This document shows, piece after piece, positions 30,901-49,100 of a stretch of DNA of 64,000 nt. Location: contig NZ_CP072870.1 in assembly GCF_017948245.1 (NCBI RefSeq), forward strand, positions 186,001-250,000. Reading direction: 5' to 3'. Below the pieces are notes generated by a model. The model saw only the letters and a program-made list of their open reading frames with translations. It was not told the DNA's origin and searched no databases. The first letter of the stretch is position 1, and each line of letters begins with the position of its first letter. The position numbers were made by a program, and so were the translations under genes. Origin of the DNA: Rhizobium sp. NLR16a. GTDB taxonomy: Bacteria; Pseudomonadota; Alphaproteobacteria; Rhizobiales; Rhizobiaceae.

Positions 30901-31785
30901 ATGCAAACGAAACGAACCGTCTTTCCCAATAAGGTTTTGCCTTATCTGCTTATTGCTCCCCAGCTTCTGATAACCGTCGTCTTCTTTCTCTGGCCGGCCG
31001 CAACCGCCTTCTGGCAATCGTTCCTTCGCCAGGATGCGTTCGGTTTCAAAACGAACTTCGTCTGGTTCCAGAATTATCGCCGGCTGTTTGCCGACCCGCT
31101 CTATATGGACGCCTTTGGTCACACCCTGGTTTTCGCCGTCTCGGTGACGGTTCTGTCGACGACGATTGCGCTCACTCTGGCCGCCGCGGCCATGCGTGTG
31201 CTGCGGACGTCCCGCATCTATTCGACCTTGCTGATCTGGCCTTACGCCGTTGCGCCTGCGATCGCCGGCATACTCTGGTGGTTCATGTTCAATCCCTCGA
31301 TCGGCATCGTCGCCTATATGCTTCACAGCATGGGGATCAGCTGGAACCATCTGATCAATCCGGACAACGCGATGGTCCTGATCGTGATCGCCGCCACCTG
31401 GAAGCAAATTTCCTACAATTTTCTGTTTTTCCTGGCCGCGCTGCAAAGCGTGCCGCGCTCGCTCCAGGAAGCCGGCGCCATCGATGGCGCCGGGCCGGTG
31501 AAGCGCTTCTGGACGATCGTCTTTCCGCTGATCTCGCCGACAACCTTCTATCTGGTCGTCATCAACATCGTTTACGCCATGTTCGACACTTTCGGCATCG
31601 TTCATGCGACGACGCAGGGCGGACCGGCGCGCGCCACGGAAATCCTCGTCTACAAGGTTTATTTCGACGGTTTCATCGGCCTCAACCTGGGCTCCTCGGC
31701 AGCGCAGTCGGTCATACTGATGATCATCGTTGTTGCTCTGACCGCGGTCCAGTTCCGCTTCGTCGAACGCCGTGTGCAATATTGA
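30901..31785 (+). CDS. ugpA: sn-Glycerol-3-phosphate ABC importer, permease
   Basis: 294 residues with six predicted membrane helices (first at [19 protein letters not shown]). The ABC-permease EAA loop is present ([23 protein letters not shown] split over the loop), as is the family end [15 protein letters not shown]. It pairs with UgpE to form the channel and contacts the ATPase UgpC. ATG 30901 lies 60 bases after ugpB; the next gene begins 12 bases after its stop. Confidence 0.93.
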
Positions 31786-31797
31786 GGAGCGTCAAAG

Positions 31798-32646
31798 GTG
31801 GTTGAAAATCGTCCTTTCCTGAATTTTCTGGCTCACCTCGTCCTTATCCTCGGCGTCACGATCGTGATCTTCCCGGTCTATATCGCCTTCATCGCCTCGA
31901 GCCATGGCCCCAACGACTTTTTGTCCGGTGTCGTGCCGCTGAAGCCGGGACCGCACCTCATTGAGAATTATTCGACCATGCTGTCTTCGGGTATGACGAG
32001 TTCCGGCGCACCGCCGATCGGACCGATGCTGTTCAACTCGTTGATCATGGCCGTCGGTGTCGCGGTCGGTAAGATTGCCATTTCCATCCTTTCCGCCTTC
32101 GCCATCGTCTATTTCCGATTTCCCTTTCGCACGCTCGCCTTCTGGATGATCTTCATCACCCTGATGCTGCCGGTCGAGGTGCGCATCGTGCCGACCTACA
32201 AGGTGGTCGCCGACCTGGGAATGCTGAACAATTATGGCGGACTCATCATTCCGTTGATTGCATCGGCGACGGCCACCTTCCTGTTTCGTCAGTTTTTCCT
32301 CACCGTGCCCGACGAGCTGATGGAGGCTGCGCGTGTCGACGGGGCGGGGCCGATGAAATTCTTCCGCGATATCCTGCTGCCCTTGTCGGTGACCAACATC
32401 GCAGCCTTGTTCATAATCCTGTTCGTGCTCGGCTGGAATCAGTACCTGTGGCCGCTCATCGTCACGACCGACCAGAGCCTCTACACCGTCGTCATGGGCA
32501 TTCAGCGCATGGCCGCGGTCGCGGATGCCGAGCCGCGCTGGAATCTTGTCATGGCAGCGGTCATCCTGGCCGCCTTGCCGCCCGTCCTCGTCATTGTCGC
32601 CATGCAACGCCTTTTCGTCAAAGGCCTGGTCGAAACGGAGAAATGA
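31798..32646 (+). CDS. ugpE: sn-Glycerol-3-phosphate ABC importer, permease
   Basis: 282 residues, six membrane helices, and the EAA motif [20 protein letters not shown]. The N-terminus ([19 protein letters not shown]) begins with a GTG codon at 31798 preceded by GAGGAG. The C-terminus [13 protein letters not shown] is typical of UgpE. It forms the translocation pore with UgpA. The stop is one base before the ugpC ATG, showing tight operon structure. Confidence 0.93.
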
Positions 32647-32647
32647 A

Positions 32648-33694
32648 ATGGCCCCGATCAATATCGTCGACGTCAAGAAAAACTATGGTTCGATTCCTGC
32701 TGTCAAAGGCATCAACCTGACGGTCGAAGACGGTGAATTCATCGTGCTCGTCGGCCCTTCCGGCTGCGGCAAGTCAACCTTGCTGCGCATGATCGCCGGA
32801 TTGGAATCGATCACCGGCGGCCAAGTCGAAATCGGCGGCCGTAACGTCAACAAGGCGGAGCCGGCCGAGCGCGATATCGCCATGGTCTTCCAGAATTATG
32901 CGCTTTATCCACATATGACGGTGCGCGGAAATCTTGAATATGGCCTGAAGAACCGCGGCACGCCGCGGGCGGAAATCGATCGCCGCGTCAAGGAAGCGGC
33001 CGACATTCTCGAAATTGGGCCAATGCTGGATCGCAAGCCGCGCGAATTGTCGGGAGGACAGCGCCAGCGCGTCGCGATGGGACGGGCCATCGTGCGCGAA
33101 CCGGCGGCGTTTCTTTTCGACGAGCCTCTGTCCAATCTTGATGCCAAGCTGCGCGTGCAGATGCGCGTCGAAATACGCCGGCTGCAACGCCGCCTGAGGA
33201 CCACCAGCATCTACGTCACCCATGATCAGCTCGAAGCGATGACGCTTGCCGACCGGCTTGTCGTCATGAATGGCGGACTGGTCGAACAAGTGGGAACGCC
33301 CGTTGAAGTCTACGACCGTCCGGCAAGTTTGTTCGTTGCCGGCTTCATCGGCTCTCCGCCGATGAACCTCGTGCCGATCGAGGTGCTGGGTACGGCCGAT
33401 GCCAGGAACGTCCTAGCCTTGCCTGACGGGACGGACATCGTCGGTCTCAGGCCGGATGCTCTTCTCATCGCAAAGCCCAGCGAGCCTTCCGTTCGTCTGA
33501 ACGCCATCGTCGAATTGCTCGAGCCGATCGGCGGCGAAAGCCACTTGCATGTAAGACTGGGGGAAGGCCAGCAGACGGTCGTTCTGACGGTTCAGGGCCG
33601 GCCGGACTTCGCCGAGACTGCAAAGATCGAGATCTTCGCGCGGATTGATCAGATGCATCCATTCAACAGCAAAACTGGACGACGTACGGACTGA
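32648..33694 (+). CDS. ugpC: sn-Glycerol-3-phosphate ABC importer, ATPase
   Basis: 348-residue CUT1-type ATPase: Walker [11 protein letters not shown]-loop [14 protein letters not shown], signature [15 protein letters not shown], Walker [14 protein letters not shown] and switch His in [10 protein letters not shown], then a C-terminal TOBE/MalK regulatory domain ([15 protein letters not shown]). It energises import of glycerol-3-phosphate by ATP hydrolysis. Start at 32648 immediately after ugpE; the longer open frame upstream belongs to another frame of ugpE. Confidence 0.94.
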
Positions 33695-33755
33695 AACGGC
33701 CGGATAGAGCTGTCCGACATCTGCAGCGTCGAAAAGTGAGGAAAAAGAGAAAGAC

Positions 33756-34505
33756 ATGCCAAAGTCAGAGCCGCGATCCGGACCCGGCCGCAGTGAGGTT
33801 CAAGCACATCGAGGCGCATCCGCTGTCGCGCCCGAAAACACGATTGCCGCGTTTCGGGCGGCTGCGGACCGGGGCGCCGAATGGGTCGAACTGGACGTCG
33901 CGCTCCTTGGCGATGGGACCGCAGTCGTCATCCACGACGTGTCCGTCGACCGTTGCTCCTCATCGACCGGCAGGCTCGGCGATCTCACTGCATCCGACCT
34001 GCGGGAGATCGACGCCGGCGCGTGGTTCGCCCCCCGTTTCAAGAGCGAACCCTTGCCGACCCTTGCCGAGGTCCTGTCCGCATTGGGAGAGCTGGGATTG
34101 AACGCCAACGTCGAGATCAAGCAGCATCCGCATCACAAATCTCTCGACCAGCTGGTAAAGACCGTTGACGAGCATCTGAAGGCGCGCGCGCCGCAGACCA
34201 AGATCATGATATCGAGCTTCGACGCGGCGGCGCTCAGGCGCATGCACGAAATCGATCCCAGTTACGAGCTCGCTATGTTGTGGAGTAGACTGCCGGATGA
34301 CTGGAGTGATGTTCTCCAATCAATTCCCGCAAGAACGATCCATCTTGGTTACAAGTCTCTCAGCATCGGTTTCCTTGAGGAGGCGGCGCACCAGGGGATC
34401 AAGGTGCGGGCATGGACCTGCAATGACCCCAAGCTCCTCGCATCTTTTTGGCCTGTCGGCTTGACCGGTGTGATAACAGACGACCCGAGTGTCTATCTCT
34501 CATAG
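33756..34505 (+). CDS. ugpQ: Glycerophosphodiester phosphodiesterase
   Basis: 249-residue GDPD TIM barrel. Catalytic and metal motifs: QAHRGASAVAPENTIAAF (HR and E-N), EWVELDVALLGDGTAVVIHD (the E-x-D and the second catalytic His), NVEIKQHPHH, and VRAWTCNDP near the end. No signal peptide, so cytosolic, as UgpQ in E. coli. It hydrolyses imported glycerophosphodiesters to sn-glycerol-3-phosphate plus an alcohol. It follows ugpC by 61 bases in the same operon, which fits processing of the transported substrate. Confidence 0.93.
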   Translation: MPKSEPRSGPGRSEVQAHRGASAVAPENTIAAFRAAADRGAEWVELDVALLGDGTAVVIHDVSVDRCSSSTGRLGDLTASDLREIDAGAWFAPRFKSEPLPTLAEVLSALGELGLNANVEIKQHPHHKSLDQLVKTVDEHLKARAPQTKIMISSFDAAALRRMHEIDPSYELAMLWSRLPDDWSDVLQSIPARTIHLGYKSLSIGFLEEAAHQGIKVRAWTCNDPKLLASFWPVGLTGVITDDPSVYLS

Positions 34506-34514
34506 GAAAAAGCG

Positions 34515-35297
34515 ATGGGGCAGCGGGTCATATCGAGCCGACAACGCGAAATACTGGCGCTGATCGAAACGGAGGGCGTCCAATATATCGATGATCTGGC
34601 GCGCCGGTACGATCTGACGACCCAGACGATCCGCCGTGATATCAATGCGCTGTGTGATCTCGGGCATGCCCGCCGCTTTCACGGCGGTGTCGATGTGCCG
34701 GTCGAAGGCAGCAATATTTCGCTGAACGCCCGCGCCCAACTGAACCGTCGGGCCAAGCGGCTGATCGCCAAGCGGGTCGCCGCCGACATCGGCCCGGATG
34801 CGACGGTATTCCTGGGAATCGGCAGCACGGTCCAATTCGTCGCGGAGGCGTTGCGCGATCACCAGGGGCTGACTGTTATCACCAACAACATTCATGTCGC
34901 TCTGACCCTTTGCGAATCGCCGAGTGTCGAGGTCCATCTCACCGGCGGCCTGCTGCGCCATGACGACCGCGACGTCGTGGGCAGCGATGTGATCAAATTC
35001 GTGGAAAAATTCTATGCGACTTATGCCGTCGTCGGTGCCGGTGCACTCAGTCCGGTGAACGGCATGATGGACTTCAGCTATAGCGAGGCGCAGATCACCA
35101 ATGCGCTTCTGGAGAATTCGCAAACGCGTCTTTTGGCTGCAGACGTCAGCAAATGGACCCGCCATGCGGCGGTGCGCGTTGCACCTTTCAATAAGATAAC
35201 CCGCTTTTACACGGATCGGCTGCCGGCCGATCCGTCCGTCGCCAGTGTGCTGGCCGATAGCAGCATGGAGGTGGTGACCTGCGAGGACATGACGTGA
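34515..35297 (+). CDS. DeoR-family transcriptional regulator
   Basis: 260 residues: N-terminal DeoR helix-turn-helix (SSRQREILALIETEGVQYID, then DLTTQTIRRDINALCDLGHA, RRFHGGV) and a C-terminal sugar-phosphate-sensing DeoRC domain (FLGIGSTVQFVAEAL; DFSYSEAQITNALLE; FNKITRFYTD). It resembles GlpR, which binds glycerol-3-phosphate. It is inside the ugp operon and overlaps the HAD gene (GTGA). The palindromes at 29304-29315 and 29417-29434 are candidate operators. Repression relieved by G3P or a related phosphate is an inference. Confidence 0.92.
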   Translation: MGQRVISSRQREILALIETEGVQYIDDLARRYDLTTQTIRRDINALCDLGHARRFHGGVDVPVEGSNISLNARAQLNRRAKRLIAKRVAADIGPDATVFLGIGSTVQFVAEALRDHQGLTVITNNIHVALTLCESPSVEVHLTGGLLRHDDRDVVGSDVIKFVEKFYATYAVVGAGALSPVNGMMDFSYSEAQITNALLENSQTRLLAADVSKWTRHAAVRVAPFNKITRFYTDRLPADPSVASVLADSSMEVVTCEDMT

Positions 35298-36088
35298 CGT
35301 TCGTAGATCTGGCACCCTCCGCGCATGAATTGCAGCATGTGCGTTATCTCTTCACCGATATCGACGACACGCTGACGACAGAAGGTAAACTTCTGCCGCG
35401 CACCTATGATGCCCTTTGGGAACTCAGCCGGGCCGGCATCGCCGTCGTGCCGGTCACGGGTGGTTCAGCCGGCTGGTGCGAACACATCGTCCGTGCCTGG
35501 CCTGTTGCCGCGGTCATCGGCGAAAGCGGTGCTTATGCCGTCACCCGCCGCAACGGTGAGGTTGTTTTCGATTACTGGGAGAACGGCGCATTGCAGGGCG
35601 AGCGTCAACGCCAGCATCTTGGTGCCATCGAAAAACTGATCGCGGAAAAAGGCGGCACATTCAAGATCGCACACGACCAGGTGTTCCGCCTGGCTGACGT
35701 GGCAATCGACATTCAGCGTCATGATACCCAGGACGTCGAAGATTTTGCATGCGATATCAGGGCAATCGGCGGCACCGTCGCCATCAGTTCCATCCACATC
35801 AACACCTGGATTGGCGATTATGACAAACGCGCCATGAGCGAGCGCCTCCTGACCAGCAAATTCGGGGTGGATCCCATAGAATTGCCATCGGTCACGGCGT
35901 TCGTCGGCGATTCTCGAAACGATGCGCCGATGTTCGGCTTCATCCGCAACTCTTTCGGTGTCGGCAATATTCTTCCTGTTCTTCCGCACCTTCAGCATGT
36001 GCCGCGTTGGATCTCCTCCCAGCCGGCAGGACTTGGTTTTGCCGACATTGCCGGGACAATCCTGAATGCCAGGACCACCGGCGAATAA
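35294..36088 (+). CDS. HAD-superfamily (IIB) sugar/glycerol phosphatase-like hydrolase
   Basis: 264 residues. HAD motifs: catalytic Asp pair FTDIDDTL (about residue 18), motif II VVPVTGGSAGW, Lys in SERLLTSKFG, and the acidic motif TAFVGDSRNDAPMFG. The cap domain is of the Cof/MPGP (IIB) type. The GTG start overlaps the DeoR stop, so it is co-translated. Substrate unknown; with ugp genes it may dephosphorylate a glycerol-phosphate or related sugar phosphate, but that is inferred only from position. Confidence 0.85.
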   Translation: MTFVDLAPSAHELQHVRYLFTDIDDTLTTEGKLLPRTYDALWELSRAGIAVVPVTGGSAGWCEHIVRAWPVAAVIGESGAYAVTRRNGEVVFDYWENGALQGERQRQHLGAIEKLIAEKGGTFKIAHDQVFRLADVAIDIQRHDTQDVEDFACDIRAIGGTVAISSIHINTWIGDYDKRAMSERLLTSKFGVDPIELPSVTAFVGDSRNDAPMFGFIRNSFGVGNILPVLPHLQHVPRWISSQPAGLGFADIAGTILNARTTGE

Positions 36089-36771: not shown

Positions 36772-37686
36772 TCATGATCGCTCGAACGGCTCGCCGAGCG
36801 AGGCGACGCCATTGAGTTTGAGCAGGCGGCGATCCGCCGAAATAATACCGAGCACGATGATCGTCACCAGATAGGGCAGGCAGGCGAGCAGCTGCGACGA
36901 GACGTTGAGACCGGTTGCCTGGGCGGCAAGCCCCATCAGCGATACTGCGCCGAACAGGCATGCCCCGAGAAAGATGCGGCCGGTCAGCCAGGTTCCGAAG
37001 ACGACGAGCGCAATCGCAATCCAGCCGCGACCGGCAATCATCCCATCGGCCCAGAGCGGCGTGTAGATCGTCGCTGCATAGGCGCCCGCAAAGCCGGCCA
37101 TCATGCCGCCGACTGCGACCGCGGCGAATCGGATGGCGATAACCGGATAGCCGATGGCATGCGCCGCTTTCGGGTTTTCACCGACGGCGCGGATGATCAG
37201 GCCGAGCTTGCCATAGGCAAACATCGCCCAGATGGCGACAGTCACGAGCAGTGAAAGCCAGACGACGATATCCTGGCTAAACAGGCCGCCGATGACGGGG
37301 ATATCGGAGAGGCCGGGAAGGGCGATTTTCGGCACAGCTTTAACCGTCAGGCTCTCATAGGTTTTGCCGAACAACGCTGACAGGCCCTGGCCGAGAATCC
37401 CGATCGCCAGCCCGGTCGCCACCTGGTTCGCGTTGAAGCCGAGGACAATCGCCGCAAAGATCAGGGACAGAAGCAGGCCGCCGAGGCCGGCGGCGAGAAA
37501 AGCCAGAAAATGCCCGCCGCCGTGATAGACAATGATGAAGGCGATGATGGCGCCGAATGCCATCAGCCCCTCGACGCCAAGATTGAGCACGCCGGCACGC
37601 TCGACGACAAGTTCTCCGAGAGCGGCCAGGAGAAAGGGTGTCGCAGCCGCCAGCATTCCGGCCAGAACGAACTCGACGGCGTTCAT
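36772..37686 (-). CDS. BMP-type purine/nucleoside ABC importer, permease 2
   Basis: 304 residues, about eight to nine hydrophobic helices, BPD_transp_2 family (YufQ/RbsC-like). Typical motifs: LVVERAGVLNLGVEGLMAFGA at the start and GIISADRRLLKLNGVASLGE at the end. The ATG overlaps the stop of the first permease (ATGA). It is the last gene of the minus-strand island that starts at 44945. With a BMP-family binding protein, the family transports nucleosides or purine bases. Confidence 0.92.
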   Translation of the reverse strand: MNAVEFVLAGMLAAATPFLLAALGELVVERAGVLNLGVEGLMAFGAIIAFIIVYHGGGHFLAFLAAGLGGLLLSLIFAAIVLGFNANQVATGLAIGILGQGLSALFGKTYESLTVKAVPKIALPGLSDIPVIGGLFSQDIVVWLSLLVTVAIWAMFAYGKLGLIIRAVGENPKAAHAIGYPVIAIRFAAVAVGGMMAGFAGAYAATIYTPLWADGMIAGRGWIAIALVVFGTWLTGRIFLGACLFGAVSLMGLAAQATGLNVSSQLLACLPYLVTIIVLGIISADRRLLKLNGVASLGEPFERS

Positions 37687-38783
37687 GTGGGGCTCCTGGT
37701 GGATGGGGACCGCCAGGCAAGACGGTAGCGCACGAAGGCGATGGCCACCAGGTAGGCAAGGAGCAGGCTGCCCTGGAAAACCCGGACCGCCGCAACCGGC
37801 AGATTGGCGGAGACCATCGCATTGTCGCCCCCGATATAGAGCGCGGCCATGACGATCGCTGAGACAACGATGCCGACCGGGTGCAGGCCGCCGAGATAGG
37901 CGACGATAATTGCCGCATAGCCGTATCCGGTCGAGATCGAGCGTTGCAGCTGGCCAAGCGGACCGGCGACTTCGGCTGCACCGGCAAGACCGGCTGCGGC
38001 TCCACCGATCAGCAGCGAAAGCCAGATTGCGCCGCTCTCCCGGAATCCGGCATAGCTCGCAGCGCGCGGCGCCAGTCCGCCGACCTGCAGTTTATAGCCG
38101 ATGAAGCTCTTCTGCATGAAGACCCAAGCGGCAATCGACAGGAGAACGGCGAGGATGAGCGCGACATTGACGCGCGTTCCCTCAATCAGGATCGGCACCA
38201 TCGCGTCATATTGGAACATGACGGACTGCGGGAAATTGAAGCCGTTCGGGTCCTTCCAGGGGCCGAGCAGCAGATAATTGAGGAGCTGCACGGCGACAAA
38301 ACTCAACATCAGGGAAACGAGAATTTCGTTGGCATTGAGCCGGACGCGCCAGAAGGCGGTGAGCGACGCCCAGAATGCGCCGCCCATCGCGCCGAACAGC
38401 AGCATTAGCGGCCAGATCCACTGGCCGGTTGCGCCGGGCCACCAGATCGGAATGGCGGAGGCGAAGATCGCGCCGAGGACGAATTGTCCTTCGGCACCGA
38501 TATTGAAGACCTTGGCACGAAAGCCGACCGCAAGCCCCTGCGCGATGAGGAGCAGCGGTCCGGTCTTCAGCAGCACTTCGGAAAACGACGCCCATGAAAA
38601 GAAGGGCTCGATCAGCATCGCGTAGACGACCGCAGCCGGATCGCGCCCCATGATGACGTAAAGTCCGAGATTGAGAATGACGGTGACGATGAGGGCTATG
38701 GGCGGCGCCAGGAGGGTGGCGGCAAGCGATGCCCGCTCCCGGCGGACGAGAATGGGCGGAGCGGCGAGGAAGGGTCTGCTCAT
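37683..38783 (-). CDS. BMP-type purine/nucleoside ABC importer, permease 1
   Basis: 366 residues, BPD_transp_2 family (YufP-like), with ~10 hydrophobic segments and the family motifs FRAKVFNIGAEGQFVLGAIF and LNANEILVSLMLSFVAVQLL. Both ends overlap neighbours (ATGA), so it is translationally coupled to the ATPase and the second permease. It forms half of the transmembrane channel of the importer. Confidence 0.92.
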   Translation of the reverse strand: MSRPFLAAPPILVRRERASLAATLLAPPIALIVTVILNLGLYVIMGRDPAAVVYAMLIEPFFSWASFSEVLLKTGPLLLIAQGLAVGFRAKVFNIGAEGQFVLGAIFASAIPIWWPGATGQWIWPLMLLFGAMGGAFWASLTAFWRVRLNANEILVSLMLSFVAVQLLNYLLLGPWKDPNGFNFPQSVMFQYDAMVPILIEGTRVNVALILAVLLSIAAWVFMQKSFIGYKLQVGGLAPRAASYAGFRESGAIWLSLLIGGAAAGLAGAAEVAGPLGQLQRSISTGYGYAAIIVAYLGGLHPVGIVVSAIVMAALYIGGDNAMVSANLPVAAVRVFQGSLLLAYLVAIAFVRYRLAWRSPSTRSPT

Positions 38784-40300
38784 GCGGTGGCTTTCTCGCG
38801 CTGCGGCTGAGCTCCGATCATGTATCGGCCGATCTCCTCCGGGTTGGTGTCACGCGTGAGCAACGGCGGGCTCAACGTGCCGTGATGCAGGACCTGTATA
38901 AAGTCGCTCAGTTCGAACAGTTCCTCGAGCTCTTCGGAAATGACCAGGACGGCCATGCCCTTGTTGCGAAGACTCATGAGGCGCTTGCGGATCGCCGCCG
39001 CCGCGCCGATATCGACGCCCCAGGTCGGCTGGGCGAGGAAAAGAAGCTTCGGCGCCAGCATGATTTCGCGTCCGACGATGAATTTCTGCAGATTGCCGCC
39101 GGAGAGCGAACCGGCCTCTGCCCCTGGACCGCGCGTGCGCACGTCGAAGTCCCGGATACAATCACTTGTGAAGGCCTTCGCCCTCACCTTGTCAAGCAGG
39201 CCATGTTTTACAAGGTTCAGCGGGTGGGCGGTCAGCAGGCTATTATAGGTGAGCGACATCTCAGGGACCGCGCCGCGGCCGAGCCGGTCCTCCGGGACGA
39301 AGGCGAGACCGAGCCGTCGGCGGGCGGCGGAGTCGAGCGTGCCGACATCCTGGCCCATCATGAAAATCTGGTCGCGTTGATCCCGCGGCAATTGGGTTTC
39401 ACCCGAAATCAGCGCTGCGAGTTCGCTTTGACCATTTCCCGAAATGCCTGCAATGCCGAGGATTTCGCCGGCGCGCACGACCAGGCTCACATTCGAAAGC
39501 GGCACGGCGAAAGGATCCGCCCGGTAATCGAGCCCGACAAGTTCCAGCCGCTTTTCACCTTCTCCCAAAGGCAGCGCAGGCATGGGTTCCGGCATGTCGC
39601 GGCCGATCATCAAGCGGGCAAGCTCGTGGGCATCGTGTTCGCGGGGATCGACGTGGCCGGTCACCCGACCGCCGCGCAAGATCGTGGCGCGATCGCAGAG
39701 CGACTGGATTTCTTCCAGCTTGTGAGAGATGAACAGGATGGACACGCCGCCGTCCCGCAGCCGGCGCAATGTTTCGAAGAGCTTTTCCACCGCCTGCGGC
39801 GGCAGCACCGAGGTGGGCTCATCAAGGATGAGCAGTTTCGGATCGGTCATCAGGCAACGGATGATTTCCACCCGCTGCCTCTCGCCGACGGAAAGCGAAT
39901 GGATATGAGCGTGTGGATCGACCTCGAGGCTGAACTCATGCCCGAGCTTGCGAACGCGCTCTGCAAGCTCGCTCTTCTTGCCGGACACGATCAGGCGGAT
40001 ATTCTCCACGACCGTCAGGCTCTCGAACAGCGAGAAATGCTGGAACACCATGCCGATACCGGCTCGCCTTGCCTCTGCGGGAGAGGCAAGGCTAAGGGCT
40101 TTCCCGTTCCATGCGACGGTGCCGCTGTCCGGCTGCTCGACGCCGTAGATCAGCTTCATCAGCGTCGACTTGCCAGCCCCGTTTTCTCCGAGGATGGCAT
40201 GGATGGATCGTGGAGCGACGTCGAGATCGATCTGCTGATTGGCATCGACCGGGCCGTAGCTCTTGGTAATGCCGCGCAGCGACAGGAGCGGGCTCGGCAT
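38780..40300 (-). CDS. BMP-type purine/nucleoside ABC importer, double ATPase
   Basis: 506 residues with two fused ABC domains, as in YufO/RbsA. First domain: Walker A GENGAGKST, signature LSVGERQRVEIIRC, Walker B LLILDEPTSVL. The second domain has the usual degenerate Walker A (ISGNGQSEL) and signature LSGGNLQKFIVGREI. It lies between the binding protein and permease genes. It drives uptake of the nucleoside/purine ligand captured by the BMP protein. Confidence 0.93.
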   Translation of the reverse strand: MPSPLLSLRGITKSYGPVDANQQIDLDVAPRSIHAILGENGAGKSTLMKLIYGVEQPDSGTVAWNGKALSLASPAEARRAGIGMVFQHFSLFESLTVVENIRLIVSGKKSELAERVRKLGHEFSLEVDPHAHIHSLSVGERQRVEIIRCLMTDPKLLILDEPTSVLPPQAVEKLFETLRRLRDGGVSILFISHKLEEIQSLCDRATILRGGRVTGHVDPREHDAHELARLMIGRDMPEPMPALPLGEGEKRLELVGLDYRADPFAVPLSNVSLVVRAGEILGIAGISGNGQSELAALISGETQLPRDQRDQIFMMGQDVGTLDSAARRRLGLAFVPEDRLGRGAVPEMSLTYNSLLTAHPLNLVKHGLLDKVRAKAFTSDCIRDFDVRTRGPGAEAGSLSGGNLQKFIVGREIMLAPKLLFLAQPTWGVDIGAAAAIRKRLMSLRNKGMAVLVISEELEELFELSDFIQVLHHGTLSPPLLTRDTNPEEIGRYMIGAQPQREKATA

Positions 40301-40303
40301 GGC

Positions 40304-41404
40304 TTACTTCGGCAGCGGCGTCGTGACACCCTTGACGTGCCAGTCCATCGCGACGATCTGGGCGTCCGTCGCCGTGGTCCCCGAAGCGACACCTTCGCTC
40401 CCATCAGCCTTGGTGATCGGACCGGTAAACGGCGAGAAGCTGCCATCGGCAATCTTGGCCTCGATTTCCTTGATCCTGGTCATAATATCGGCCGGGATTG
40501 CCGGGTTCCAATCGACGACCTGGACAACCTTGTCGGCAACGCCGAGGAAGGCGTTGGCGCCCTTGAAGGTGCCGGCAAGATGGGCGTCGACCGACGCCTT
40601 AAAGAAGGGCGACCAGTCGGTGGCGATGCAACCCAGATAGGTCTTCTCGGCATATTTCTTCATCGACGAGTTGAGGTTGAAGGCATAGACGCCGGCTTCC
40701 TCGCAGGCCGAGATCACCGAAGGGGTATCCTGCGCATTCGAGAAGATCACGTCGCAGCCCTGAGAGATCAGCGCCTTGGCGGCTTCCTGCTCCTTGGCCG
40801 GATCGAACCAGGAATTGACCCAGACGACAGACACTTCGATATCCGGCTTGACGGCCTGAGCGCCGAGCGTGAAGGCGTTGACGGAGGTGATCAGCTCAGG
40901 AATGGCAAAGGCTGACACCGAGCCGAGTTTGCCGCTCTTGGAAAGGGCCGCCGCCGCCATGCCGAACAGGTAGGTTCCCTGAAAATATTTGGCGGCGAAG
41001 GGCGAGAAGTTCGGTGCGACCTGGAAGCCTGAAGCATGTAGGACGGTCACCTTCGGATTGCGGCGGGCAATCTGCAGCGCGCCATTCTGATAGCCGAAGG
41101 AGCCGGCGATCAGGAAATGGTTTCCGTCGGCAACGGTCTTGTTCATGATGCGGTCGGCGTCCGGGCCCTCGGCGATGTTTTCGATGACCGTGACCTTCAC
41201 CTTGTCGCCATAGGCGGCCTTGATCGGATCGATGCCGGCGGCAAGCGCATGACCCCAGCCGACGTCGCCGATAGGCGAGGGAACGACGAGCGCGATGCCG
41301 AGCGGTTCGTCGGCGGCAAGCGCAGAGCGGCCGGCAAAGGCCGTCGCGAGACCGGCAGCCGCCGCGCTCTTCATCAGTTTTCTGCGGGTGAATTCGTTGG
41401 TCAT
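40304..41404 (-). CDS. BMP-family substrate-binding lipoprotein-like protein
   Basis: 366-residue periplasmic binding protein of the BMP/PnrA family. The N-terminus has a twin-arginine-type leader (TRRKLMKSAAAAGLATAFAG, cleavage near ALA-ADE) rather than a lipobox. Family motifs: GDVGWGHALAAGID, HFLIAGSFGYQNGALQIA, FSNAQDTPSVISACEEAG. GAGGGA lies nine bases before ATG 41404. PnrA proteins bind purine nucleosides; here the downstream deaminase and oxygenase suggest a purine base or modified purine. The extended open frame upstream belongs to the deaminase shadow. Confidence 0.92.
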   Translation of the reverse strand: MTNEFTRRKLMKSAAAAGLATAFAGRSALAADEPLGIALVVPSPIGDVGWGHALAAGIDPIKAAYGDKVKVTVIENIAEGPDADRIMNKTVADGNHFLIAGSFGYQNGALQIARRNPKVTVLHASGFQVAPNFSPFAAKYFQGTYLFGMAAAALSKSGKLGSVSAFAIPELITSVNAFTLGAQAVKPDIEVSVVWVNSWFDPAKEQEAAKALISQGCDVIFSNAQDTPSVISACEEAGVYAFNLNSSMKKYAEKTYLGCIATDWSPFFKASVDAHLAGTFKGANAFLGVADKVVQVVDWNPAIPADIMTRIKEIEAKIADGSFSPFTGPITKADGSEGVASGTTATDAQIVAMDWHVKGVTTPLPK

Positions 41405-41424
41405 GTCAGTTCCCTCTTTTGGTT

Positions 41425-42804
41425 TTAGAATTCGACTGTCTCGAGCGCCGCTTCCGCGGCGGCGAAAAGCTGAGCTTCGTCGAGGCCGGTAAATTCGCCG
41501 GCCTGCCAGACGATGCGCCCGTTGATCATGGTCAAATCGGTCGGCATGCCGATCCCCACCTTGGCAATCAGGCTCAACGGGTCGTGGCGGGTTCCGACAT
41601 AATCCATGCGCCTGGTATCGATGGCGAAGAGGTCGGCGGCCATGCCGGGAGCAAGGCGGCCGATATCGCTGCGGCCAAGTAGGCTTGCGCCACCCGTGGT
41701 CGCGTAGCTCAGGAAATCGACGGGCGCTGGAACCGGATGGGCGCGCGTCGAGGCCGTCAGGCATTGCAGCATATAGGCAGAGTGGATGCAGTGCATAAGG
41801 TTGGAATTGTCGTTCGAGGCCGCGCCATCGCAACCGAGGCCAATACGCAGGCCGAAAGCGGCCATAGCGGGAATGTCCGTCACTTCGGCGCCGACCAGAT
41901 AGACCGGTTCGGGGCAATGGGAGACACCCGTGCCGCTTGCCGACATCTTGCGCAGTTCCTCGTGTGTCAGCTCCCAGCAGTGGGCATAAAAGCTGTCAGG
42001 CCCGGCAAAGCCGAGTTCGGCGCAGTAGTCGACCGTCCGCATTCCATGCCGCGCCTGGATGACCGGGCTTTCGCCTTCACCGACATGCGTGTGCAGTCGG
42101 ACGCCGCGATCTCGGGCGAGCGCGACCGACTCGACGAAGGTTTCGCGGTGGCAATTGACGGGCTGACAGGGAGCGACGACCACCTGCCGCATGCTGAAGG
42201 CGCCGGCATCGTGGTAGCTGTCGATCAGCCGGGCGCAATCGGCGATGAACTCGTCCGTCGTTTCCAGCATGGCGTCCGGGATCGTCGAGCCCTCGGACTT
42301 CGGCAGCGTGTTGCCGCCGCGTCCCGCGTGGAAACGCATGCCGAGAAGATCGGCCGCCTCGAACTGACGATCGATCAGGCGTTTGCCTGCGTGCCGGGGG
42401 AAGCAATATTGATGGTCGAAGGCCGTGGTGCAGCCGTGCTTGATCATCTCGGCCATGGCCGTGACCGACGAATGATAGAAGCAATCCTCGTTCAGTCGCG
42501 AGAAGATCGGATAAATCCGGTCGAGCCATTCGATAACCGAAAGCTTCGTCCAGTCGAGATCGGCCCGATTGCGCACGAAGCATTGGAAGAAGTGGTGATG
42601 GGTGTTGACGAGACCCGGATAGACAAACCAGCCTGATGCATCCTGAATGACCGTGTCCGCAGGCAAGGGCTCTTGCGACAGGTTCGTCCCGATCGCCTGG
42701 ATCGCCGGACCATTGGTCAGCAGATCGACGTTCCGGCGCACGGCCGGCCCGTTGCCTTCGTCGACGATAATCGCTGCGCAGTTCTTCAGCAGGTAGCCCG
42801 CCAT
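41425..42804 (-). CDS. 8-oxoguanine/guanine-deaminase-type amidohydrolase
   Basis: 459-residue metal-dependent amidohydrolase (TrzN/8-oxoguanine-deaminase branch). Metal ligands: HxH in LVNTHHHFFQ, His in HTHVGEGESPV, His in FYAHCWELTHEELRK, Asp in GLGCDGAASNDNSN. Only one metal is expected because a barrel Lys is absent. It converts an amino-purine (8-oxoguanine, guanine or similar) to the oxo form plus ammonia. It is in tandem with the BMP importer, GST and Rieske genes (one base between it and the GST stop), so its substrate is probably the imported purine or its demethylated product. Substrate is inferred. Confidence 0.87.
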   Translation of the reverse strand: MAGYLLKNCAAIIVDEGNGPAVRRNVDLLTNGPAIQAIGTNLSQEPLPADTVIQDASGWFVYPGLVNTHHHFFQCFVRNRADLDWTKLSVIEWLDRIYPIFSRLNEDCFYHSSVTAMAEMIKHGCTTAFDHQYCFPRHAGKRLIDRQFEAADLLGMRFHAGRGGNTLPKSEGSTIPDAMLETTDEFIADCARLIDSYHDAGAFSMRQVVVAPCQPVNCHRETFVESVALARDRGVRLHTHVGEGESPVIQARHGMRTVDYCAELGFAGPDSFYAHCWELTHEELRKMSASGTGVSHCPEPVYLVGAEVTDIPAMAAFGLRIGLGCDGAASNDNSNLMHCIHSAYMLQCLTASTRAHPVPAPVDFLSYATTGGASLLGRSDIGRLAPGMAADLFAIDTRRMDYVGTRHDPLSLIAKVGIGMPTDLTMINGRIVWQAGEFTGLDEAQLFAAAEAALETVEF

Positions 42805-42805
42805 C

Positions 42806-43465
42806 TCACGTCTCCTCGTTGACGGGATGAGGGTCGGGTTTCAACTCGTGCAGCCGGTGGATGCCGGGCATTTCGATAAAACCTTCAAGGCTGCGGATGG
42901 CGCGCAGCCAAAGCCTAATGTTCGGATAGGGATCGAGCGAGATTCCGCCGTCGGGCGCCAGTGCCACATAAGGGAAACAGGCGATGTCGGCGATCGTCGC
43001 ACGGTCGCAAGCCAGGAACCGCATGTCGCGGAGCCGCTGCTCAAAGAGGCCGGCTTCGAGCTCGCGCAGCGCCGCGACTCCTTGTGCCTGCAGGACTTCG
43101 ATATTGCCGGGACGCAGAAGCATCTGATGCAGCCGTGCGCCGCCGAGATTTGTCGTCAGCCGATGCGAAAACGAGAGCCATTGGTGCACCCGCGCGGTCT
43201 CCTCAGGCGCGCTCATACCCAGCCAGTCAGGCCCGCTCCGGGCGGCGAGATAGGCGAGCATGGCCGAAGATTCTGTCAGCACCAGATCGCCATCCACGAG
43301 GATCGGGATTGAGCCTGCCGGATTGAGGGCCAGAAGCTCAGGACCACGATGTTCCTTGCCGGGATGGAAATCGACCGGCCGGATATCCAGCTCGACGCAG
43401 AGGATGGCAGCCATCAGGCGGATCTTGTAACAGCTCGGCGATAGGATGTAGTCGTAGAGCTTCAT
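42806..43465 (-). CDS. Glutathione S-transferase-like protein (NdmE-like candidate)
   Basis: 219 residues. Thioredoxin-fold N-terminal domain (KLYDYILSPSCYKIRLMAAI; the cis-Pro/Ser pair in GSIPILVDGDLVLTESSAML) and an all-helical C-terminal domain (DRATIADIACFPYVALAPDG). ATG 43465 overlaps the oxygenase stop (ATGA). It is coupled to a Rieske-less oxygenase subunit, the same partnership as GST-like NdmE with NdmC in Pseudomonas N-demethylation of 7-methylxanthine, where NdmE is structural. A normal detoxifying GST is the alternative. The NdmE-like role is inference from context. Confidence 0.85.
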   Translation of the reverse strand: MKLYDYILSPSCYKIRLMAAILCVELDIRPVDFHPGKEHRGPELLALNPAGSIPILVDGDLVLTESSAMLAYLAARSGPDWLGMSAPEETARVHQWLSFSHRLTTNLGGARLHQMLLRPGNIEVLQAQGVAALRELEAGLFEQRLRDMRFLACDRATIADIACFPYVALAPDGGISLDPYPNIRLWLRAIRSLEGFIEMPGIHRLHELKPDPHPVNEET

Positions 43466-44310
43466 TGTGCGACCAACTGCGCGCCATAGAGATAATTGTG
43501 GCGCTTCAGCCAGCGCCGGTAAGCGATAGAGGTCAGGTCGGCCCTGGTCGGGATTTCCATGCCCGGATCGAGCGGCAGAAGCGCCGGGATCTGGTTTTCG
43601 AGGATCGATCGATCCTGCAGGAAAATCATTTGCTGAAAATGGATGAGGTCCGTCATTGGCGTCACGTCGTCGAAGAGGGCCATCCACGGCCATACGTCAC
43701 AGAGATCTTCGGCAAGCGGCTGGACGAATAGGGTAATGACGTCCCATTCCTCCGGGCGAGGAGGGCAGGTCTTGTAAAGCACCGAGCAGGTCGGGGCAGG
43801 CACGCGGTACATATACTCGGTGGTTATTCCGCCGGTCGCCGACTTTGCAGCCTGCGGCTGGTAGAATTTCACCTGCGTCGCCCAGACTTCATCCTCCTTC
43901 TCGCGGATCTCGACTTTATAATTTTCGACCTCCGTATGCGGCTCGGCGCCGAGTATATCGGTGTGGACGAAGGGAAAATGCGCAATATCGAGGAAGTTCT
44001 CGACTGCTCTCAAGGGGGAACAGCGTACCCGCACGACACCGACATCGACGAAGCGGCGGCCGGGCTGATCCGCTTCGGGAATGGCGAAGAGCTCCTTGGC
44101 GGGGGTGCCAAGAGAAGACCAGACATGACCATAACGGACGCGGACGGGCAGGGCACGCCCATCGCCCGATGTGACCCGCGCCGCGCCATCAGCCGTGCGC
44201 ATCACCTCTATGGGCTCGCCCATCAGAGCAGTCCTGCTTCCTGCACCGGTGAGCTGGCTGAAGAGGCCAACCGGGTACCATTCGTCGATCATCGCACCGG
44301 CCCCTTTCAT
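43462..44310 (-). CDS. Rieske-less oxygenase catalytic subunit (NdmC-like candidate)
   Basis: 282 residues of the ring-hydroxylating-oxygenase alpha-subunit fold. The iron triad is visible: His111 and His116 in DIAHFPFVH, and Asp233 in FLQDRSILEN; bridging Asp108 lies just before the first His. The N-terminal ~70 residues resemble a Rieske domain edge (WYPVGLFSQL...RYGHVWSSLG) but the two cluster loops CxH and CxxH are missing. So it must get electrons from another Rieske protein, most simply the gene upstream, whose stop overlaps this ATG (ATGA). NdmC has exactly this composition. Substrate, probably an N-methyl or other modified purine, is inferred. Confidence 0.8.
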   Translation of the reverse strand: MKGAGAMIDEWYPVGLFSQLTGAGSRTALMGEPIEVMRTADGAARVTSGDGRALPVRVRYGHVWSSLGTPAKELFAIPEADQPGRRFVDVGVVRVRCSPLRAVENFLDIAHFPFVHTDILGAEPHTEVENYKVEIREKEDEVWATQVKFYQPQAAKSATGGITTEYMYRVPAPTCSVLYKTCPPRPEEWDVITLFVQPLAEDLCDVWPWMALFDDVTPMTDLIHFQQMIFLQDRSILENQIPALLPLDPGMEIPTRADLTSIAYRRWLKRHNYLYGAQLVAQ

Positions 44311-44945
44311 GCGACATCCTTCTGGCGTGTTTCCGCGCGGCGGCGCAGGGCTTCGGCGATGCGGGACGCCGCAATCCGATCTGCGACAGTGCGCTCCCGT
44401 TCGACCAGGACATGTATCAGAGTGCATCCGATCTGCGCCGCGGGCAACAGCCGAACCCATGGATGGTCCGTGACTGGGATCAACCCGCTCGCGGCCTTGC
44501 CGCCGGCTGCTGCTTCGATTGCCACGATGTCGGCAACAAGCGTCAGCGAGCGTATTGGCGCCAAACCATCCAGGCTTGGCGGCGGCATTGCCGGCTCGCC
44601 GACTGCGACCCAGACGATTCCATCTGATTCCTCGACCCGCTGAACTGCCACGCGGATCGTTTCCGGCGGCACAAGGTCTGGATGAGCCGGGATGCGAATG
44701 CATCCTCCCGCCGGAGAATAGCTCCAGCCATGATAGATACAGGAGAGCGCCTCGCCCCGCACGAAGCCGTGCGACAGTCGCATCCCGCGATGCGGACAGC
44801 GATCCGAAGAAGCTGATGCGCGCCCGGACCGGCTGCGCCAGAGAGCGATCGATCCTGCCGGCGTCCAGGCCGGAATGACGCTTGCCGGAGGCAGATCGGC
44901 AGAAAGGGCGACAGGCGTCCAGGAGCCGGTCGTATCGGAAGGCAT
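44307..44945 (-). CDS. Stand-alone Rieske [2Fe-2S] protein
   Basis: 212 residues. Complete Rieske motif: Cys50-x-His52 (CPHRGMRLSHG) and Cys69-x2-His72 (SCIYHGWSYSPAGG). The C-terminal ~130 residues carry no iron-site, flavin or ferredoxin domain, so it is not a full oxygenase or reductase. It probably shuttles electrons to the Rieske-less catalytic subunit downstream, like the extra N-terminal Rieske domain of NdmD but without the reductase part. ATG 44945 is preceded by GAGGAA. It is the first gene of the island (44945 to 36772). A reductase must be encoded elsewhere. Confidence 0.85.
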   Translation of the reverse strand: MPSDTTGSWTPVALSADLPPASVIPAWTPAGSIALWRSRSGRASASSDRCPHRGMRLSHGFVRGEALSCIYHGWSYSPAGGCIRIPAHPDLVPPETIRVAVQRVEESDGIVWVAVGEPAMPPPSLDGLAPIRSLTLVADIVAIEAAAGGKAASGLIPVTDHPWVRLLPAAQIGCTLIHVLVERERTVADRIAASRIAEALRRRAETRQKDVA

Positions 44946-45066: not shown

Positions 45067-45360
45067 TCAAGTCGGATGGCGTTCCGACTTCGGTGTAGAG
45101 ATGGGATCTACAATCCTGCGCTGAATCTCGTCGACCCAGACATCGATTGGCCCCAACGAACACGCCATTTCCAGCATGTCGATCAGCTCGACAGGCCCTG
45201 CGACCTCGAGTTCGATCCGCTCGGCGCCGGCCTGCAAAAAATCTTGGGAAAGGCCGAGCTTGTCGGCATGGCGGCGTATCCACGGGACGAATGAGGCGGA
45301 ACTGACGTCGCCAAGGATCGCGATCCGTTCGCGTAGCTCGTTCTGCCGTGATCGTATCAT
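45067..45360 (-). CDS. Degenerate acylphosphatase-like protein
   Basis: 97 residues whose middle and end follow the acylphosphatase fold: ASFVPWIRRHADKLGLSQ, ERIELEVAGPVELIDMLEMA, CSLGPIDVWVDEI. The catalytic Arg position of GxVxGVxFR reads Val (GDVSSASFV), and the catalytic Asn region (normally GWVRN) reads GLSQDF. So it is likely non-enzymatic or reassigned. ATG 45360 has GAGAG upstream. It lies just before the Rieske island on the same strand, with 121 bases between. Call rests on pattern only. Confidence 0.6.
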   Translation of the reverse strand: MIRSRQNELRERIAILGDVSSASFVPWIRRHADKLGLSQDFLQAGAERIELEVAGPVELIDMLEMACSLGPIDVWVDEIQRRIVDPISTPKSERHPT

Positions 45361-45911: not shown

Positions 45912-46168
45912 GACCGCAAGACCTTCACCCCTGCCGGCGCGGCGCCTCTTATAGCATGAAACCGCATTGCCGCAGCTTTGCTCTTCGCGGACCTGCCTTA
46001 ACAACATGCACTGGAACCTGAGTCGGGAAGATCAGCAGAGATGCGCCCCCCTCAATAATCCGAAGCATAGGCTCGTTGACATGAGAGGAAAGTCGGTGAA
46101 GCTTGATTGGGTCTCCGATGCCTGCACCTCAGATCGTATGCGGGCAGCATCGAAGCGAGCGGTGTGCA

Positions 46169-49100
46169 ATGGACGACACGGTCAAAGATGCGCAGAAGAC
46201 CAGGAAAAACATGTTCGGACGGAAGCGCGCTCTCGCTTCCGTCGGCCAGCAGACTTCGACTGACCTTCGGCACTACGAGCCACAATCATCCTGGAGTGAC
46301 GGCGATCGCATCTTTACACGAGAGCTGATCCGGAGCGGCAACGGCGCATCAAAAGCCGTTCTGAGGGTGCAGCTTGCAGCCGAACATCCCAGCCGAACCA
46401 GCCTCGACAGACTGGCCCACGAATATCGCCTGAAAGACGAACTCGACCGGGAGTGGGCAGCCAAACCGCTGGATTTCACAACGGAAAACGGTCGTGTCGT
46501 GCTCGTCCTCGAAGATTGCGGCGGCGTGCCCCTCCCGCAGTTGATGGGACGGCACAGCCATGGCATGGCCGCCGAACTCACCGTCTTTTTGCGTCTTGCC
46601 AAGGGCATTGCGGCGGCAGTCGGCAAGGCTCACGGATGCGGCCTCATTCACAGGGACATCAAGCCGGCGAATATATTGGCGGACGAGACGGAAGGGCGGG
46701 TCCGTCTCACGGGCTTCGGAGTGGCGTCGCATCTTTCTCGTGAGCGCCAGGCCGCCGAGCCCCCTGAGGTCATTGCTGGCAGCCTCGCATACATGGCGCC
46801 CGAACAGACCGGGCGCATGAACCGGTCGGTGGACTCGCGTAGTGACCTCTACGCCGTCGGCATCACGCTCTACGAAATGATCACCGGCCAGTTGCCGTTC
46901 ACCGCTTCGGAGCCGATGGAATGGGTGCACTGCCATGTTGCCAAGCGACCGGTGCCGCCGTCCGAGCGTGTCAGAGAGCTACCAGGCGTTATCTCGGCAA
47001 TCGTGATGAAGCTGCTCGCCAAGAACGCAGAGGAACGCTACCAGACGGCCGCAGGGCTAGAGGCGGATCTGCGACGTGCCCTCGTCCAGAGCGAGAAGCA
47101 TGGGCGGATTGCAGAATTTCCGCTCGGGACACGCGATGTGCCGGACAGACTGGTGATTCCCGAGCGGCCCTACGGTCGCGAACGCGAAATCGCCGCCCTA
47201 ACCTCCGCATTCGACCGGGTCGTCGCAGGCGCCGGGCCGACGCTGGTGCTGGTTTCGGGTCATGCCGGCGTGGGCAAATCCATGGTCGTGAATGAGCTCC
47301 ACCGCGCGCTCGTGCCGCTGCGTGGGCTGTTTGCCTCCGGCAAATTCGACCAGAACCAGCGCCACATTCCTTATGCGAGCGTAGCGCAGGCCCTGCAAGG
47401 CCTCGTCCGAGTGCTGCTGGGCAAGAGTGAAGCGGAACTCGCGCCCTGGCGCGCTGCTTTAACCAAAGTACTGGGCGCGAGCGGTCGGCTGCTGGCACCG
47501 CTTATTCCGGAACTTGAATCTCTCATCGGCCGGCTTCCGGCGGTTGCGGATCTGCCGCCTCAGGACGCCAAACGCCGCTTCCAATTGAACATTAGGCGCC
47601 TACTGCGCGTGTTTGCCACAGCAGAACATCCGCTCACGCTGTTTTTAGACGATCTCCAATGGTTGGACGCAGCAACGCTCGATCTGCTTGAAGATTTGTG
47701 CACCCAGCAGGACATGCGTCACCTGCTGCTCATCGGCGCCTATCGCGACAACGAAGTATCGTCCACCCATCCACTGATCCGCCGGCTGGCAGCGATCCGG
47801 GAGGCCGGTGCCCAGGTGCATGAAATCGTGCTGACACCCCTTAGGCTGGAAGATCTGACCCGGATGCTGGCCGACGCTCTTCATTGCGGAAGCAGCCGTG
47901 TCCAGCCGCTTGCTCGACTAGTGCACAAGAAGAGCGGAGGCAATCCCTTCTTCGCGCTCCAGTTCCTGAGCACCCTGCCGGACGAAGGCCTGCTGGAATT
48001 CAATCGCGAACAGACGCACTGGGATTGGGATCTCGATCGCATAAGAGCCAAAGGCTATACCGATAACGTCGCGGATCTGATGCTAAGCAAGCTGCGGCGC
48101 CTGCCCGATATCACGCAGGCTGCCCTGAACATGCTGGCGTGTCTCGGCAATCACGCGGCGGTTGATACCCTGGCTTTGATCAGGAGCGAAAATCACGACG
48201 CGGTTCATGCAGCCTTTTGGGCCGCGGCGCGGGCCGGACTCGTGCTGCTTGAAGAGGGGTCATCATACCGCTTCCTGCACGATCGTGTGCAGGAGGCCGC
48301 CTATGGGCTGATCCCTGAAGACGAGCGGGCGGCAGCGCATCTTTCCATTGGCCGCCTCCTGCTGATGCATACGCCGCCGCAGGCACTCGAGGAGAATATT
48401 TTCGAGATTGTCGGCCAACTCAACTGCGGCGGCGCGCTCATCGCGCCCGGCGAAGAGCGCGAGCGTCTCGCGGACCTGAACCTGCTTGCCACTCGCCGCG
48501 CCAAGGCGTCGGCTGCATACGAATCGGCGCTGGCCTATGCCGGGACGGGTGCGGCTTACCTGCCGGACGATGCCTGGGAGCGCCGATACGAACTCGCTTT
48601 CGCCCTCGAACTCCACAGGGCCGAATGCGAATTCTTGACTGGGGCACCGGCGGAGGCGCAGGCCCGCCTTGCAGAATTAGCAAGCCGAGCCGCCAGCCTC
48701 GCCGATCTGGCCCGCGTCACGCGCCTGCGCGTCGACCTTTTCATGAGCCTGGGTCGGAGCGATCAGGCCATCATATTCGGCCTCGACTACCTGCACCGGG
48801 TCGGCATTTCGTGGTCGTCCCACCCGACCAGGAGCCAGGTGCGCCAGGAATACGCGCGGCTTTGGCGACAACTGGGGGGCCGCCCTATCGAAGCGCTGCT
48901 TAACTCGCCCCCAATGGCGGACCCTGTCGCGCTCGCGACCATGGACGTTCTGACTTCACTTGTTACTCCGGCCCTGTTTACCAACGAGAATCTGCGCTGC
49001 CTCATTATCGGGCGAATGGGCAACCTCAGCCTCAAGCACGGCAACAGCGACACATCGCCTTATGCCTTCACTGCCGTGGGCACGGTGCTCGGGCCGTATT

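Follow-up and report, generated by a model that had tools for sequence, protein, structure and literature searches.

The locus described here raises the question of which substrate is served by a Rieske oxygenase with its metal sites divided between two proteins and with no reductase encoded in its operon. It lies in a 64,000-nucleotide stretch of Rhizobium sp. NLR16a (contig NZ_CP072870.1, positions 186,001 to 250,000; hereafter the window), which is part of a 290-kb contig in a genome of 6.58 Mb, and comprises nine genes on the minus strand, in a gene order that is shared with plasmid p42c of Rhizobium etli CFN 42, which carries this operon too. From homology, sequence motifs, conservation of the operon and phylogeny, we consider it probable that the nine genes between 36772 and 45360 constitute one operon for uptake and breakdown of N-methylated guanines. 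Listed from the first gene onwards, they are:

45067–45360, minus strand: degenerate acylphosphatase-fold protein, 97 amino acids, first gene of the operon (profile match and predicted fold)
44307–44945, minus strand: stand-alone Rieske protein, 212 amino acids, corresponding to the N-terminal half of NdmD, without reductase (PF00355, alignment with NdmD)
43462–44310, minus strand: NdmC-homologous oxygenase subunit (mononuclear iron) without Rieske cluster, 282 amino acids (VanA_C, PF19112; NdmC-type matches)
42806–43465, minus strand: protein resembling glutathione S-transferase (GST), NdmE homologue, 219 amino acids (NdmE-type matches)
41425–42804, minus strand: amidohydrolase, assigned to the N2,N2-dimethylguanine hydrolase type, 459 amino acids (active-site residues, Pleomorphomonas oryzae homologue)
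40304–41404, minus strand: substrate-binding protein of an ABC importer, BMP family (PF02608, 141 bits)
38780–40300, minus strand: ATPase of the importer with two ABC domains (PF00005 in two stretches)
37683–38783, minus strand: permease 1 of the importer (PF02653)
36772–37686, minus strand: permease 2 of the importer (PF02653)

An earlier note on this DNA, made from the sequence alone, had already listed a Rieske protein, an oxygenase subunit, a GST-like protein, a deaminase and a BMP-type importer on the same strand. All of these genes are in place, with the importer at 36772–41404 (minus strand), while the gene at 45067–45360, which belongs to the operon, was omitted. Of the 4-base overlaps claimed there, those at the Rieske/oxygenase and oxygenase/GST junctions are present in the window (ATGA in both cases), whereas the GST and amidohydrolase genes are separated by a 1-base gap and do not overlap.

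A scan of genomes by species yielded 200 stretches with a relative of the oxygenase subunit, of which the best 80, with at least 86% identity in this subunit, were kept as near-kin loci and read usually 9 kb in each direction. The Rieske, oxygenase, GST and hydrolase genes stand together in all 80, which excludes a chance arrangement and establishes the co-conservation of the Rieske–catalytic–GST trio whose absence the earlier note would have taken as a refutation; the importer binding protein is found in 79 of the 80 stretches read. The oxygenase gene ends in ATGA in 79 of these loci, and the Rieske gene ends in ATGA in 71, in GTGA in six and otherwise in three. Beyond the near kin, 397 genomes sampled from the order gave matches to an oxygenase profile in 66 (E 1e-30), and 385 from the class gave them in 8 (E 1e-60); with the single protein as query, 24 of 398 genomes of the phylum matched (E 1e-15). 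Some of these matches are full-length oxygenases.

The split Rieske oxygenase

The likeness of the three coupled proteins to NdmC, NdmD and NdmE, proposed in the earlier note, is borne out by similarity searches. As reference set we used a Pseudomonas putida plasmid with a caffeine-type cluster that carries all three types, the labels NdmC, NdmD and NdmE being assigned here from gene order and PMC4408171. The oxygenase subunit matches the P. putida NdmC type with 44% identity (E 4e-82), the GST matches P. putida NdmE with 39% (E 6e-53), and the Rieske protein matches the N-terminus of NdmD with 39% (E 2e-27) and remains co-linear with it past the cluster, up to the start of the reductase. Against NdmC-type proteins the oxygenase subunit scores 216–242 bits at 43–47% identity, compared with 37–52 bits against full-length oxygenases, and the GST scores 147–170 bits at 38–40% identity against NdmE types, compared with 74.5 bits for the best solved GST structure, so neither groups with the ordinary types of its family. 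By sequence comparison, the trio can be assigned as homologues of the N-terminal half of NdmD, of NdmC and of NdmE. We rejected an aromatic oxygenase of VanA/PobA type: the VanA_C domain is present, but the best relatives are of NdmC type and the solved matches are SxtT/GxtA and NdmA/B.

The two metal sites are found on separate proteins throughout. The Rieske ligands C50, H52, C69 and H72, as described in the earlier note for the protein at 44307–44945, are invariant in an alignment of 56 sequences, mostly stand-alone forms, and the cluster ligands are intact in all 80 near-kin loci. In the oxygenase subunit H111, H116 and D233, which we take to be the iron ligands, and D108, presumably the bridging aspartate, are invariant in 23 homologues. 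The iron motif is present in the oxygenase subunits of all 80 near-kin loci, none of which has a C-x-H within the first 90 residues, in accordance with the cluster-less subunit that had been noticed; in the Rieske proteins of the same 80 loci the D..H....H iron motif was not found. These observations bear on the suggestion that the stand-alone Rieske protein is a decayed remnant of a non-functional system. The lack of both a reductase half and a linked reductase would fit such decay, but we regard it as hardly credible, given the intact ligands in the near kin and across the 56 sequences and the gene coupling kept in most of the 80 loci.

The predicted structure of the Rieske protein (predicted local distance difference test score, pLDDT, 95) ends in a shrunken strand-helix-strands-helix unit and aligns over its full length with whole Rieske oxygenase subunits such as SxtT, with a TM-score of 0.70–0.74 by query length and a root-mean-square deviation of 4.5–6.0 to the SxtT chains. 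Each of the two proteins seems to retain a remnant of the domain it has lost, catalytic in the Rieske protein and Rieske-type in the oxygenase subunit, and the pair resembles a duplicated oxygenase of which complementary halves were kept. SxtT and GxtA are the closest solved structures for both halves and differ from them in being single full-length polypeptides. An oxygenase that places its metal sites on separate proteins, each retaining a remnant of the domain found in its partner, and that has no reductase of its own bears on electron transfer between subunits.

NdmCDE, the N7-demethylase of caffeine degradation in Pseudomonas (PMC4408171), likewise has an oxygenase subunit without cluster, a Rieske cluster on another protein, a GST-like third protein and a purine context. 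The window differs in that its Rieske protein stops before the reductase, in that the Rieske gene precedes the oxygenase gene, and in that the operon adds the acylphosphatase-fold gene, the hydrolase and the BMP importer. Lacking the reductase fusion, the system should not be called NdmCDE, though it very likely works like one. Homologues of ndmCDE in Sinorhizobium and Mesorhizobium have already been reported, with function unknown (PMC4408171), and the NdmC-C-D-E cluster on pSymA of Sinorhizobium resembles the window in combining NdmC, NdmD and NdmE homologues with a BMP importer in a rhizobium. It differs in having two NdmC paralogues and a reductase-fused NdmD, and neither a hydrolase of the window's type nor an acylphosphatase-fold gene occurs in the stretch read. 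Two NdmC-type oxygenase subunits also occur in three other loci (L047, L182 and L190), together with one Rieske gene, one GST gene and several amidohydrolases.

By analogy with NdmCDE, the ring position attacked would most likely be N7. The oxygenase could instead act elsewhere, for example at N1, N3 or C8, by hydroxylation or demethylation, on a guanine alkaloid or other secondary metabolite, with the hydrolase working before or after it. This would suit the identity of just 43–47% to NdmC types, the kinship of both halves to SxtT and GxtA, which were crystallised with guanidinium tricycles, and the presumption in the hydrolase paper that secondary metabolites are the substrates (PMC13054789). 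NdmC types, that of S. meliloti included, nevertheless sit with BMP importers and NdmE types, and the shape of the operon suggests purine nitrogen salvage, so that we judge action away from N7 to be rather unlikely and retain N7-demethylation of a guanine-derived purine as the preferred reading.

The amidohydrolase

The substrate class is suggested by the amidohydrolase, which the earlier note had taken for a deaminase of 8-oxoguanine/guanine type. This identification did not hold. All 13 active-site residues of the N2,N2-dimethylguanine hydrolase poNdmH recur at identical numbers in the window's enzyme, namely the catalytic Q74, E243, H275 and D326, the flanking W85, W93, Y98, Y133 and P300, and C213, Q214, N217 and N165. 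The enzyme is 80.2% identical over 459 gap-free residues to protein P0128 of Pleomorphomonas oryzae, which shares these 13 residues. P0128 is encoded in an operon with identical content and order of the nine genes and is the only match at E 1e-60 in the P. oryzae genome. Judged by species, residue numbering and its standing as sole close homologue, P0128 is very probably poNdmH itself. N2,N2-dimethylguanine hydrolases, poNdmH among them, reach kcat/KM values of about 1e5–1e6 per M per s, which is 150–3600-fold the value on guanine (PMC13054789). On the strength of its active-site residues, the window's enzyme is assigned to this hydrolase type.

It should be noted that the closest curated model is an 8-oxoguanine deaminase (NF006055) and that seven more distant NdmC-type loci carry 8-oxoguanine-type deaminases, which would suit an operon for salvage of 8-oxoguanine or guanine with the oxygenase as an accessory. 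The match to that model reaches 370 bits, below its cut-off of 532, and the solved 8-oxoguanine deaminases (7ww2, 3hpa) have no W85 and show C-S-P-F-S at the place of the window's C-Q-P-V-N, which follows a C-Q-x-x-N motif. Score and motif together rule out an 8-oxoguanine or guanine deaminase, and with the strong preference of such hydrolases for N2,N2-dimethylguanine over guanine a salvage operon of this kind becomes very improbable, leaving N-methylated guanines as the favoured substrates.

Hydrolase and oxygenase are closely tied in the genomes sampled. Among the 397 genomes of the order, 12 hydrolases are at least 79% identical to P0128, and each of them lies 552–673 bases from the oxygenase gene, in this operon; the other matches listed in these genomes are at most 43% identical to P0128. 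In the class sample a hydrolase was found at E 1e-110 in one of 385 genomes, the window's own. All 13 residues are kept in 79 of the 80 near-kin loci, and in the remaining one (L108) the hydrolase gene is in two frames. In the sampled order, the hydrolase occurs only with the oxygenase, and the oxygenase occurs also without the hydrolase. One such case (L164, genome G472) has the trio and the small acylphosphatase-fold gene at 60–88% identity to those of the window (oxygenase 88%) and could serve as a natural test of the oxygenase working alone.

Loci of the latter kind raise the alternative of a methylxanthine degrader resembling NdmCDE, to which the hydrolase was added later, either feeding the complex or unrelated to it. 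The homology of the trio to NdmCDE would be in line with this, as would L164 and more distant reductase-less loci such as L161, L173, L176 and L178, in which oxygenase and BMP importer occur without this hydrolase. The 12 of 12 close hydrolases placed in this operon, and the retention of the hydrolase in all 80 near-kin loci (in one frame in 79), argue in the other direction. Furthermore, the window's contig yielded no second gene with a Rieske domain, so that there is no NdmA or NdmB partner near. We consider the methylxanthine alternative improbable and continue with N-methylated guanines as the substrates.

Relatives of the hydrolase occur in two further settings. On plasmid pADP-1, the record annotated 'amidohydrolase', which we take to be AtzB, belongs to the same hydrolase subfamily and is 57% identical to Salipiger P0198, a homologue of the window's hydrolase. 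It differs in acting on hydroxyatrazine and in lying in a block between insertion elements, with no oxygenase in the stretch read; an NCS2 (purine-type) permease is encoded one gene beyond the atzB-type amidohydrolase (L207, 6980–10716). A close kin of the atrazine gene atzB is hereby placed in a methylpurine-type operon. On a plasmid of Pusillibacter faecalis (a gut Clostridium; L206, 2277–9380), a homologue with 49% identity retains 12 of the 13 residues, W85 being replaced by Y. Its neighbours are a BMP importer, a purine-nucleoside phosphorylase and a gene bearing the annotation mtnA; in the 17 kb read, no gene is annotated as a Rieske oxygenase. This gut context lends some support to the methylpurine reading.

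The missing reductase and the acylphosphatase-fold gene

The Rieske protein ends before the FMN/NADH/[2Fe-2S] reductase of NdmD, and the reductase half of NdmD was found in none of the 80 near-kin loci within the stretch fetched. A linked reductase was likewise rejected as electron donor, none being present in these loci. The stand-alone Rieske protein had been regarded as a new arrangement; the lack of a reductase half is confirmed by the alignment with NdmD, whereas the arrangement is widespread and not peculiar to this locus. Sixty-one other loci comprise 33 with a stand-alone Rieske protein and no reductase, four with a separate reductase gene, 20 with a fused NdmD and four without a Rieske gene. 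The last four (L167, L185, L187, L191) hold a second oxygenase copy with no Rieske gene in the stretch, and two loci with full-length oxygenases (L057, L058) were left out of the table. In five of the 33 (L043, L044, L045, L155, L156) the last 180 residues of the Rieske protein are identical to near-kin loci, which leaves 28 independent ones. L042 was counted as having a separate reductase, although its broken frames suggest a damaged fused gene, and L050 was counted as fused despite having the ferredoxin part only. L042 (8681–11307) is a Cupriavidus plasmid with NdmC- and NdmD-type genes that are each split into several overlapping frames, and L050 (8107–9297) encodes a 397-residue NdmD variant consisting of Rieske domain, vestigial domain and ferredoxin part, with no flavin/NAD part in the sequence.

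Reductase-fused forms constitute one clade in three Rieske-domain trees (98/90, 99/92, 99/91), the first with 59 rows, the second with 40 of those 59 and the fullest with the 59 and 12 full-length outgroup rows. Since the fused forms group in this way, the reductase fusion was gained or lost once. In the fullest tree, a short one built from 131 columns, a branch (91/77) also sets the stand-alone rows apart, and the outgroup does not hold together, with one row on the wrong side; a nesting of the fused forms within the stand-alone forms was not upheld there. A single gain is the cheaper account, because the full-length outgroups have no fused reductase, and this mildly favours a reductase-less ancestor, while the root is unsettled in the tree.

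The earlier note had further suggested searching for a co-conserved reductase gene elsewhere in the genome. For the NdmD reductase, the window's genome gives one strong match (36% identity) and two weaker ones (E 3e-10 and 1e-6). The strong one sits with a trimethylamine monooxygenase (857.6 bits, cut-off 675) and a DmmA-family gene (116.9 bits, cut-off 60) and may belong to dimethylamine oxidation. In G238, a genome with a stand-alone system, no NdmD-type reductase was found at E 1e-8, and four NAD-binding reductase-domain matches were. A common NdmD-type donor for stand-alone systems was dropped as unsupported.

The first gene of the operon, at 45067–45360, encodes a protein with a conserved E-M-x-C-S-L-G-P stretch in 40 sequences. 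Its AlphaFold2 model (pLDDT 88) finds acylphosphatases as best fold matches in the PDB (E 2e-6), so that it shares its predicted fold with acylphosphatase (PF00708). The PF00708 match of three such proteins is below the gathering score of 22.5, at 16.7–21.4 bits (E 3e-4 to 9e-3). At the places expected for the catalytic arginine and asparagine of acylphosphatases, no conserved residue of either kind is visible in the 40 sequences, an alignment which holds no enzyme and was mapped by eye; the sequences have the conserved C-S-L-G-P instead. Relatives of the gene were detected by profile in 79 of the 80 near-kin loci, and among the 28 reductase-less loci outside these 80 it lies at most 1 kb from the Rieske gene in 26, the exceptions being L055 and L158. 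Within 1.5 kb it was found in none of the 20 fused and none of the four separate-reductase loci; in two it lies 6–8 kb away. Fisher's test gives 1.5e-12 for the association with the reductase-less form, for loci that are related, and on the tree the fused form changes once and the small gene five times. The association is mainly one of lineage. We think it probable that the small protein partners the stand-alone Rieske subunit without being catalytic itself.

Proposed pathway and genomic surroundings

We propose a model in which the BMP-type importer would bring in a methylated guanine base, whose exocyclic (methyl)amine at C2 would be exchanged for oxygen by the hydrolase, giving a compound of xanthine type and ammonia, methylamine or dimethylamine. 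The split Rieske oxygenase would then take off a ring N-methyl group as formaldehyde, most likely from N7, to yield xanthine, which would enter central purine catabolism. Rieske cluster and mononuclear iron would be held together on their two proteins by the GST-like subunit, and electrons would have to come from an unlinked NAD(P)H reductase, since the operon encodes none. Dimethylamine could possibly pass to the dimethylamine-oxidising cluster seemingly encoded in the same genome, where the trimethylamine monooxygenase and the DmmA-family gene offer a possible sink.

Several observations weigh against this model. N2,N2-dimethylguanine needs no oxygenase, because the hydrolase alone converts it to xanthine (PMC13054789); consequently, the substrate of the oxygenase must carry a ring methyl group as well, or the operon serves several methylpurines. 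In the 18.5 kb read at L164, trio and small gene are accompanied by no hydrolase and no importer, and this type of hydrolase is also missing from the reductase-less loci whose oxygenase is at most 73% identical. With an identity of just 43–47% between the catalytic subunit and NdmC types, position specificity may differ, and the equation of P0128 with poNdmH is not confirmed by accession. The electron donor was not found, the genome's only strong NdmD-type reductase lying in a cluster of dimethylamine monooxygenase type, and the association of the acylphosphatase-fold gene follows one deep split of the tree and not many independent events.

RNA is the obvious common source of methylated guanine bases. 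On the model above, a nitrogen-fixing soil bacterium probably imports methylated guanines, for example from decaying RNA, strips them of their methyl-bearing groups and feeds the purine to its metabolism. A more specific version, which we put forward as a tentative possibility, is that Rieske subunit, cluster-less oxygenase, GST and pseudo-acylphosphatase make up a split Rieske oxygenase of four components that has no reductase of its own and recycles RNA methylguanines jointly with an N2,N2-dimethylguanine hydrolase. The two enzymes would exactly suit 2,2,7-trimethylguanine of RNA caps, a natural base that bears both modifications: the hydrolase would convert it to 7-methylxanthine and dimethylamine, and the oxygenase would go on to xanthine. 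NdmD of the caffeine pathway would then have arisen later, when a Rieske subunit of this kind was fused to a reductase, and AtzB of atrazine plasmids would be an escapee from such an operon.

Rhizobial NdmCDE homologues of unknown function (PMC4408171) and the activity of the hydrolases (PMC13054789) are already known. In the open-licence literature searched, we found no mention of the form without reductase, of a partner with acylphosphatase fold or of a connection between hydrolase and oxygenase. Among the open-licence PMC titles and abstract beginnings listed, none joins a Rieske oxygenase with N2,N2-dimethylguanine hydrolase; in the open-licence PMC literature, nothing was found that joins 7-methylguanine, deaminase and Rieske, or that pairs any two of Rieske oxygenase, standalone Rieske, acylphosphatase and split Rieske. 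The words Rieske, transporter, oxygenase and genome neighborhood do not occur in the main text of PMC13054789, and in a bacteroid transcriptome paper the sole Rieske mention found by word search is a respiratory protein. The physiological context of the hydrolases is under investigation according to their discoverers (PMC13054789), and the gene context described here makes this role, which they leave open, directly testable, while a specific substrate class is offered for the rhizobial ndmCDE homologues.

No Rfam match to a riboswitch was obtained in the window. Divergent from the operon and also present in R. etli p42c are genes for a 2004-residue Ser/Thr kinase-AAA-GAF-PAS-histidine kinase (46103–52117, plus strand) and for a LuxR-type response regulator (52156–52794, plus strand), which together are a candidate sensor pair for the operon. 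On its other side, the operon is adjoined by genes for a glycerol-3-phosphate-type ABC importer, a phosphodiesterase, a DeoR regulator and a HAD hydrolase (29506–36088, plus strand), arranged as they are on R. etli p42c.

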